Assembly: GCF_018304825.1 (NCBI RefSeq)
Contig: NZ_CP072648.1
Span: forward strand, 2,215,501-2,279,500
Direction of reading: 5' to 3'
From: Chloracidobacterium validum
GTDB taxonomy: Bacteria; Acidobacteriota; Blastocatellia; Chloracidobacteriales; Chloracidobacteriaceae
Length of the DNA: 64,000 bases
The notes beneath the pieces are model-generated. The model did not search any database. It was not told the DNA's origin and saw only the letters and a list, made by a program, of their open reading frames with translations. Positions 32,399-34,549 of this stretch are shown here, piece by piece (the stretch's first letter is position 1; each line of letters opens with the position of its first letter). Position numbers and translations under genes: made by a program.

Positions 32399-33241
32399 TC
32401 AATACTCATAGAACCCGCGTCCGGTTTTGCGGCCCAGCCAGCCGGCCGCGACATACTGGCGGAGCAGCGGGCAGGCGCGGTACTTTGGGTCGCCAAAGCC
32501 TTCGTAAAGCACATCTAGAATGGCCAGGCATACATCGAGTCCGATGAAGTCGGCCAGGGTCAGTGGCCCCATTGGATGGTTCATGCCAAGCTTCATGATG
32601 CCATCAATTGCCTCACGGGTCGCTACGCCTTCGTAAAGCGCGAACATGGCTTCGTTGAGCATGGGCATCAGGATGCGGTTGGAGACAAAACCCGGAAAAT
32701 CGTTGGCAATCAAACAGGTTTTGCCAAGCTTTGCGCCAAGCTCAAGGATGGCATTGGTGGTGGCGTCGCTTGTCGCGCGGCCACGAATCACCTCCACCAG
32801 TGGCATGACCGGCACCGGATTCATGAAGTGCATGCCAATGACTTGCGTGGGGCGCTTGGTCACGGCTCCAATTTTCGTAATCGAAATTGAAGATGTATTC
32901 GTCGCTAAAATCGCTTCAGGACGGGTCAAGGCATCGAGTTCACTGAAGAGCGCCGCCTTGGCCGCGAAGTTCTCGACGATGGCCTCCACAACGATTTCGG
33001 CGTCTTTGACAGCCGCCAACTCGGTCGTCGGATGAATCCGCGCCAGGATTTCGTCTTTTTGGGCCGGCGTGAGACGCTCTTTTTTGACATCCCGATCGAG
33101 ACTGGCCGCAATGGTCGTCAGGCCTCGGTCGAGGTATTCCGGCGCGACATCCCGCAAAACCACATCAAATCCGGCGCGGGCGGCCACTTGGGCAATGCCA
33201 CTGCCCATCGTTCCTGCGCCAATGACAGCGAATCTACCCAT
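32399..33241 (-). CDS. hbd: 3-hydroxybutyryl-CoA dehydrogenase
   Basis: NAD(P)-dependent 3-hydroxyacyl-CoA dehydrogenase, 280 residues, single-function short form as in butyrate or PHB metabolism. The Rossmann motif GAGTMGSG is at 8-15. NTSSI and the catalytic His138 in [10 protein letters not shown] are present, with [10 protein letters not shown] and [16 protein letters not shown] in the C-terminal domain. It catalyses the reversible 3-hydroxybutyryl-CoA/acetoacetyl-CoA step. Neighbours give no complete pathway. Confidence 0.94.
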
Positions 33242-33318: not shown

Positions 33319-33543
33319 TCAATAGTAGCGGTCACGTTCATCATCCTCGTCATCGTAGTCGTCGTCGTAGTCGTCGTCTTCGTCATCATCCTCGTAGTCA
33401 GATTCGAGGTCGAGTTCAATGGGGTCGAGTCCGACTAAGCGCAGTACCGCGCCGCACTCGTCACACTCGATGATATCGCCTTTGTCGGCGTCTTCGTCCA
33501 CATGAACTGTTGCTTTGCACTCAGGACAGGTTCCCTGCGGCAT
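33319..33543 (-). CDS. LysW-like amino-group carrier protein with acidic C-terminal tail
   Basis: A 74-residue protein. Two CxxC pairs (C6/C9 and C27/C30) form a small zinc-binding fold, and the GTCPECKA and VGLDPIEL segments match LysW, the carrier to which LysX attaches alpha-aminoadipate or glutamate in lysine/arginine synthesis. LysW proteins end in EDWGE, the attachment site. Here residues 47-72 are instead almost all Asp/Glu with Tyr, ending DRYY. The ATG has AAGGAG 11 nt upstream. No lysX, argX or other lys genes are nearby. A relative with another role is likely. Confidence 0.82.
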   Translation of the reverse strand: MPQGTCPECKATVHVDEDADKGDIIECDECGAVLRLVGLDPIELDLESDYEDDDEDDDYDDDYDDEDDERDRYY

Positions 33544-34009
33544 GACCGTTGTTTCTCCTTCAGAAGTGGCAAATGCGCATAGCAAGTCGGGTTGAGGCGA
33601 ACGTAAACCAGCCAGCCCAACGCTGCAAGCCAGTCTTTCGTAGCAAAGGGTGGCACAGGCATTCCTGCCTGTAGCAAAGGGCGGCACAGCCATTCCTGCC
33701 TGTAGAAAGCGTGGCACAGGCATTCCTGCCTGTAGAAAGCGTGGCACAGGCATTCCTGCCTGTAGAAAGCGTGGCACAGGCATTCCTGCCTGTAGCAAAG
33801 CGTGGCACAGGCATTCCTGCCTGTAGCAAAGGGCGGCACAGCCATTCCTGCCTGTAGCAAAGCGTGCCACAGGCATTCCTGCCTGTAGCAAAGGGCGGCA
33901 CAGCCATTCCTGCCTGTAGCAAAGCGTGGCACAGGCATTCCTGCCTGTGGCAAAGGGCGGCAGGACACAGGCAAGAATGCCTGTGCTACCTTGTTCGCTT
34001 TAGATACCC
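33544..34009. other. Intergenic region largely filled by palindromic repeats
   Basis: 466 bp between the LysW-like gene and hpt. Apart from the repeat array at 33640-33990 I see no gene. Open frames span it in three minus-strand frames, but these are a by-product of a repeat unit without stop codons. Confidence 0.7.
33640..33990. repeat. Tandem array of about ten 30-31 bp palindromic repeats
   Basis: Ten consecutive units of 30 or 31 bp from 33640 to 33946, with no spacers, then a partial unit and one inverted divergent copy to about 33990. Each unit holds a hairpin core: ACAGGCA, loop TTCC, TGCCTGT. Two variants occur: type A (GCGTGGCACAGGC) and type B (GGGCGGCACAGCC, one stem mismatch). 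They alternate in units 6-10; units 3-5 are identical and one base shorter. The array could form a row of hairpins in the RNA between hpt and the LysW-like gene. Confidence 0.95.
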
Positions 34010-34549
34010 TCACAGGGACGGATTGAGAATGGCAACATAGGGCAGGTTGCGGTATCGCTCGGCATAATCCAGGCCAAACCCAACCACAAACTCGTTTGGA
34101 ATCGTGAAGCCCACATAGGTCACGTGCACCTCACGTTGCCGCCGTTCCGGCTTGTCGAGGAGGGCCGCCACGCGCACCGAAGCCGCGCCACGCCGGCGAA
34201 ACATATCGAGCAGGTAAGACAAGGTGAGTCCGGTATCCACGATGTCTTCAACAATGATGACTTCCTGCTCCCGGAGACTGGCGTCGAGGTCTTTGAGCAA
34301 GCGCACTTCGCCCGATGACTTGGTTGAAGCGCCATAGCTTGACACGGCGATGAAATCCATCGTCACGGCCAGGTCTATCGTCCGCACCAAGTCCGCGGCA
34401 AATGGCACCGCGCCCTTCAACACCACGACCAGCAACGGCGACCGTCCGGCGTAGTCAGCCGTAATGGCCGCCCCCAACGCTCGAATTCGAGCCTGAATCT
34501 GCTCGGCGGTGAACAAGACACTCAACTGCGGTTGGTCAAATTCCGACAT
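34010..34549 (-). CDS. hpt: Hypoxanthine phosphoribosyltransferase
   Basis: Purine salvage enzyme making IMP or GMP from hypoxanthine or guanine and PRPP. The 179 residues include the PRPP-binding motif VIIVEDIVDTGLT (97-109), LLVVVLKGAVPFAADLVR and the flexible loop SSYGASTKSSGEV. Also typical is the end VGFGLDYAERYRNLPYVAIL. It lies 31 bp downstream of the diguanylate cyclase gene. Confidence 0.95.
   Translation of the reverse strand: MSEFDQPQLSVLFTAEQIQARIRALGAAITADYAGRSPLLVVVLKGAVPFAADLVRTIDLAVTMDFIAVSSYGASTKSSGEVRLLKDLDASLREQEVIIVEDIVDTGLTLSYLLDMFRRRGAASVRVAALLDKPERRQREVHVTYVGFTIPNEFVVGFGLDYAERYRNLPYVAILNPSL

Follow-up and report, generated by a model that had tools for sequence, protein, structure and literature searches.

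The carrier proteins LysW and ArgW (TIGR01206, NF041070; PDB 3wwl, 3wwn, 5eio, 3vpb, 5k2m) consist of a zinc ribbon with two CxxC pairs, followed by a VGLDP motif, and are acidic in character. According to the accessible part of PMC10433800, LysW is loaded at the gamma-carboxyl group of its terminal Glu, and the sequence EDWGE is recognized by LysX/ArgX. A carrier role has also been suggested for LysW-like proteins outside lysine synthesis, the AmCPs, which are encoded in natural-product clusters (PMC8346489, accessible part). In the accessible sections of the respective reports, Chloracidobacterium validum BV2-C is described as lacking lysine genes and requiring lysine (PMC12816986), and the same is described for C. 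thermophilum (PMC4376005).

A gene for a small LysW-like protein is present on the minus strand of a 64,000-nucleotide stretch of the C. validum genome, referred to here as the window. The encoded protein shares with LysW/ArgW the two-CxxC ribbon, VGLDP, the acidic character and, as judged from a model, the fold (0.9 A rmsd from 3wwn_B), but differs from them in lacking EDWGE and the terminal Glu, in carrying a long acidic tail, in the absence of LysX over cut-off from the genome and in scoring below the NCBIfam cut-offs. It differs from the natural-product AmCPs, as far as these are covered in the accessible part of PMC8346489, in that the genes directly beside it are hpt and hbd rather than those of a biosynthetic cluster, and in that it occurs in most of the sampled class. 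The features of the locus are as follows.

32399..33241, minus strand: 3-hydroxybutyryl-CoA dehydrogenase (hbd), downstream neighbour (NF004474, 443 bits; cluster c4)
33319..33543, minus strand: coding sequence of the LysW-like acidic-tailed protein, 74 aa (translation, PF21344, codon comparison)
33322..33408, minus strand: acidic tail, residues 46-74, 20/29 Asp/Glu, tip RDRYY (translation, low pLDDT, codons, period-3 tract)
33409..33543, minus strand: predicted zinc-ribbon core, residues 1-45, CPEC...CDEC and VGLDPIEL (PF21344, AlphaFold2 model and Foldseek)
34010..34549, minus strand: hypoxanthine phosphoribosyltransferase (hpt), upstream neighbour (TIGR01203, 209 bits)

The open reading frame starts with ATG at 33543, with GAAGGAG read directly in the sequence 5' of it, and ends with a stop codon at 33319-33321; the translation of 33543..33319 is MPQGTCPECKATVHVDEDADKGDIIECDECGAVLRLVGLDPIELDLESDYEDDDEDDDYDDDYDDEDDERDRYY. 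Residues 5-46 match PF21344 (Zn_ribbon_LysW) with 49.3 bits, above the gathering cut-off of 27, residues 4-49 match LysW of T. thermophilus (3wwl; phmmer 1.6e-9), and the four Cys form two CxxC pairs, in agreement with the initial annotation, in which the zinc-binding part and VGLDPIEL had been likened to LysW. The core would thus be a zinc ribbon of LysW type and presumably binds zinc. Matches of the protein to troponin and calmodulin in a sequence search of the PDB were set aside as due to acidic composition. EDWGE is absent from the window protein, the C-terminus of which is DERDRYY. The replacement of the C-terminal Glu and EDWGE by a mainly acidic tail, as initially claimed, is borne out by the 20 Asp/Glu among its 29 residues and the final Arg-Tyr-Tyr; the length then given, about 26 mainly acidic residues, needs correction, because 29 residues follow VGLDPIELD and the kept tip RDRYY is not mainly acidic.

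An AlphaFold2 model, built from an alignment of 7 sequences, contains five short strands, with pLDDT of 85-87 for residues 1-40 and 76 for residues 41-50, while the last 24 residues (51-74) are neither strand nor helix and have pLDDT of 50-56. In the Foldseek search against the PDB, ranks 1-6 were all LysW chains (E 1.6e-4 to 4.1e-2, below 0.001 for ranks 1-3), with rmsd of 0.9-1.6 A across 43-47 columns. By prediction, the window protein has the LysW fold. Rank 7 was ZitP (PDB 2nb9), presumably a zinc-finger hub protein, which is likewise a small zinc finger and matched weakly (E 0.21).

The DNA for the tail sits within a period-3 tract (33347-33399), and a spurious reading frame arising from a triplet repeat had to be considered. 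An acidic tail behind the same core was, however, identified in homologues from 7/7 Chloracidobacterium genomes sampled, C. validum included, and across 46 core codons of these seven the mean pairwise pS is 0.666 and pN 0.040. Since the core is kept through such heavy synonymous change, the frame is not a product of chance, and strong purifying selection acts on the core. The Chloracidobacterium tails vary by insertions and deletions but keep their acidity, and the tip is kept as RDRYY, RDQYY or QDRYY.

The score of the window protein was 37.8 bits with TIGR01206 (cut-off 53.2) and 37.4 bits with NF041070 (cut-off 75). Genome-wide searches of C. validum identified one PF21344 match and one match to the LysW model, both the same gene and the latter below cut-off, and thus no second LysW. 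For LysX no match over the cut-off was obtained (best 34.7 vs 275.6 bits); all six matches to the model were partial, within frames of 361-1086 aa, so that this model revealed no LysX-like ligase of full length. The initial annotation had noted no lys genes nearby; in these searches LysX over cut-off and a second LysW were missing from the whole genome, and the organism is a lysine auxotroph. In one other Blastocatellia genome, four adjoining LysX-like ATP-grasp matches, all below the LysX cut-off, lie on one strand (G005:C20:4348-7749).

PF21344 matches were obtained in 137 of 147 genomes of the class (134 over cut-off) and in 124 of 247 genomes of the phylum (103 over cut-off), some of the weaker ones sitting in long frames that belong to other proteins. 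Among the 137, 59 were read as sequence, C. validum included. After five of 140 extracted matches had been dropped as not LysW-like (L187, L189, L190, L191, L192), 135 LysW-like Acidobacteriota proteins were retained, and two CxxC pairs are present in each homologue read. These proteins fall into two kinds: 23 end with DWGE or DWGQ and 112 are without that end. Tailed homologues encoded together with LysX, which the initial annotation had named as the mark of an ordinary LysW, were looked for: LysX lies inside the fetched region, shorter than the full flank where a contig ends, for 21/23 proteins of the first kind vs 0/112 of the second. In the remaining two genomes with a DWGE/DWGQ protein, LysX is located elsewhere, about 4 kb away in G155 and on another contig in G176. 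The 28 of 247 phylum genomes with LysX over cut-off are those holding a DWGE/DWGQ protein (22 read, and six of family f52 assigned because LysX adjoins the match).

The acidic-tailed protein was counted in 81 of these 247 genomes, 12 of them (eight from family f4 and four from f16) by a PF21344 match over cut-off without LysX and not by reading of the sequence. It occurs in the greater part of the class genomes sampled and in roughly one third of the phylum sample, a wider distribution than that of LysX, and 74 of the 81 genomes lack LysX. The other seven hold LysX together with the acidic-tailed protein, and each also has a separate LysW of the DWGE/DWGQ kind. The protein is therefore not peculiar to C. 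validum, and some genomes contain both kinds, neither of which the initial annotation had noted. The gene can be absent, because no PF21344 match was found in the four sampled genomes of family f2, the sister family within the order of C. validum. A close homologue in a record titled Actinomycetota bacterium (L033; the scaffold name includes Acidobacteria) is the same protein as that at G045:C533 of family f1, the record probably being mislabelled. Two LysW-like matches, below 60% identity, were found on plasmids, in Deinococcus and Streptomyces; no match to the protein was found on viral contigs. Searches of defence and phage families gave no match in PADLOC and three weak ones in PHROGs (best E 0.0027).

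A plain misreading of an ordinary LysW of lysine or arginine synthesis can draw on the alignment of the core with LysW and on the behaviour of the NCBIfam models with ten relatives: TIGR01206 was passed by 2/3 DWGE proteins and 0/7 others, three of these seven falling about 1 to 4 bits short, and NF041070 by none, so that these cut-offs do not separate the two kinds cleanly. This reading is hardly credible, however, for a protein of 37.8 vs 53.2 bits without EDWGE or a terminal Glu, in a lysine auxotroph without LysX over cut-off, and was rejected. From the coincidence of the DWGE/DWGQ end (DWG[EQ]) with LysX, and from the lack of a second LysW and of LysX over cut-off in the genome, it follows that the window protein is a LysX-independent LysW paralogue without the acceptor motif.

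The C-termini were then compared, excluding two tails cut by contig ends. Tail length ranges from 8 to 55 residues by the counting measure used, and the mean Asp/Glu fraction is 0.66 in Blastocatellia as well as in the other classes (lowest 0.41). A terminal Tyr, Phe or Trp is present in 46 of the 57 Blastocatellia homologues other than the window protein, against a background of 22/238 neighbouring Blastocatellia proteins (at least 120 aa, clusters of at least three loci). This is not a general feature, because outside Blastocatellia 31/53 tails end with Glu and 3/53 with an aromatic residue; an acidic-plus-aromatic tip of SSB type was also considered and does not hold there. The five proteins read from family f3 end with EDWTE, EDWSE, EWEDE or DWEEE, near EDWGE, and EEEW and DEDEY are found among the other homologues. 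The C-terminal sequences suggest that the tail tip may descend from EDWGE.

These ends bear on the suggestion that the protein is still a carrier, in a pathway distinct from lysine and arginine synthesis, and that LysX is replaced as its loading enzyme by an ATP-grasp that went unrecognised or by a PP-loop enzyme with adenylating activity. The carriers proposed for natural-product clusters offer a precedent, and many tails outside Blastocatellia end with Glu, some as WxE. In the window protein, however, the last residue is Tyr, which makes a LysW-type linkage at the gamma-carboxyl of a terminal Glu impossible, and the carrier role considered in the initial annotation gains no support on this point. 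The aromatic ends of the other Blastocatellia homologues, the failure to find a full-length LysX-like ligase in C. validum (G000) with the LysX model, and hpt and hbd as the two nearest genes also speak against a carrier, which we consider unlikely here. In other classes a carrier role with another ligase would be conceivable, because 31/53 tails end with Glu and the f3 ends lie near EDWGE.

The neighbours hpt and hbd, as recognized at the outset, are not genes for lysine or arginine synthesis. hbd (cluster c4) is present in 7/7 Chloracidobacterium loci, with other reading frames intervening in some. In the nine other loci of family f1, the gene is flanked by a divergent accA; in C. validum accA is located at G000:C1:506685-507638, a rearrangement having likely displaced it and put hpt and a repeat array in its place. 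This tandem array (33640-33962), just upstream of the gene, has a 31-base unit in about 10.5 copies and holds the 18-mer GGCAGGAATGCCTGTGCC, for which 9 exact matches were obtained in C. validum but none in six further genomes of Chloracidobacterium. A VWA protein (TIGR03436) is convergent with the gene in 40/57 Blastocatellia loci (e.g., L087:4831-5826), and a CarboxypepD_reg protein lies beyond it in 23 orphan loci; these two and accA were each identified by a search with one representative. The divergent neighbour in family f16 was read as a rhomboid protease from sequence alone. These conserved neighbours (VWA, CarboxypepD_reg, accA and rhomboid-like gene) give no functional lead.

In 9 loci, spread over four families, a P-type ATPase is encoded upstream of the gene at a distance of 0.1-2.6 kb, in the same orientation, and one representative carries the motif SCPC, from which we take it to be of the zinc/cadmium type. 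Together with the paired CxxC motifs shared by all homologues read and the long carboxylate-rich tails, it would fit a metal protein, with zinc (or iron) bound by the ribbon and divalent metal buffered or handed on by the tail. The initial annotation had likewise suggested that the tail could bind metal or a basic protein, which stays a conjecture here. We nevertheless regard a metal protein as improbable: the gene adjoins hpt and hbd in C. validum, the translated tail contains neither His nor Cys, and in several of the 9 loci a divergent gene resembling those of response regulators is nearer than the ATPase.

Outside Blastocatellia, 24 of the 112 loci have larE downstream of the gene in the same orientation; they belong to eight families (24/29 loci there), and this association, too, goes beyond the initial annotation. 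The larE match starts less than 170 bases from the stop in 20 of these 24 loci and more than 300 bases off in four, and a possible in-frame larE start, as read from the sequence, overlaps the stop of the tailed gene by 1 or 4 bases in 12 loci (L135, L139, L145, L152, L163, L164, L174, L175, L182, L185, L186, L188). Such an overlap, if used, would constrain the last tail codon. LarE over cut-off is present in 76/81 genomes with the acidic-tailed protein vs 102/166 without it (Fisher 2e-8, kinship ignored). LarC was detected in 29 of the 30 genomes searched for it, among them C. validum. LarE of C. validum (TIGR00268, 298 bits) has the motifs SGGxDS and CxxC-C, which mark the [4Fe-4S] type of LarE described for Thermotoga maritima in the accessible part of PMC9283937. 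In the phylum, larE is the only conserved neighbour on the same strand for which an indication of coupling was found, and it is the best lead outside Blastocatellia.

The association raises the idea of a LarE helper: in nickel-pincer nucleotide synthesis, where LarE is the ATP-dependent sulfur insertase, the protein would be its partner or would relay sulfur or metal to it. Several observations make such a helper quite unlikely: larE at E 1e-20 was not found in the fetched regions of 57 Blastocatellia and 20 f16 loci; in C. validum both genes are distant, larC at a different place on the first contig and larE on the second, with hbd beside the tailed gene downstream; G159 has the coupled pair but no LarC match; and LarE occurs without the protein in the above 102 genomes. 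LarE is moreover unlikely to be the only client, because 5/81 genomes, and also Chloracidobacterium G037 (99% complete), have the acidic-tailed protein without LarE over cut-off. A wider version, which is speculative and again rather improbable, makes the tailed paralogue a new type of accessory protein for LarE-type PP-loop sulfur insertases, and perhaps for further ATP-using clients in genomes without LarE. By docking on these enzymes it would supply sulfur or metal, or hold a carboxylate that is to be activated. If this is true, the LysW fold was turned from carrying amino groups to assembling cofactors.

The explanation that we favour, with slightly less than even confidence, is a LysW paralogue that lost, or never had, carrier function and acts through docking. 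The zinc ribbon would dock on another protein in the way that LysW does on its enzymes, the flexible polyanionic tail would strengthen or tune this contact electrostatically, and the aromatic residue with which the tail mostly ends in Blastocatellia could serve as an anchor. In favour of this explanation are the predicted LysW fold, the separation from LysX across the phylum together with the lysine auxotrophy, the acidity kept by tails of varying length, the aromatic ends in Blastocatellia and the low pN of the core. That the docking fold was kept and the cargo was not is inferred from the missing terminal Glu and EDWGE and from the lack of a ligase over cut-off. Four observations count against docking: a tree of 131 cores, with 41 columns, leaves unsettled whether the tailed proteins arose once or several times; PF21344 found no such gene in the four sampled f2 genomes; 3/7 tailed proteins scanned fall short of the LysW cut-off by no more than about 4 bits; and outside Blastocatellia many tails end with Glu, those of f3 near EDWGE, and few with an aromatic residue.

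In the accessible parts of the literature searched (few subscription papers) on LysW, amino-group carriers, acidic-tailed zinc ribbons and Chloracidobacterium or Acidobacteria, the protein is not described; the "lysW" of PMC5584792 is, in the part available, a transporter sharing the name. The acidic-tailed protein probably does a job other than lysine carriage, one absent from the papers searched. A protein easily mistaken for the lysine carrier thus occurs in lysine auxotrophs and in most sampled genomes of the class, without the loading enzyme. Should it prove not to be a carrier, then LysW-type synthesis of lysine or arginine would be wrongly claimed for any genome in which the tailed protein is the basis of the claim, and Acidobacteriota would share a common protein without a known function, for which the coupling with larE in other classes provides a direct and testable lead.
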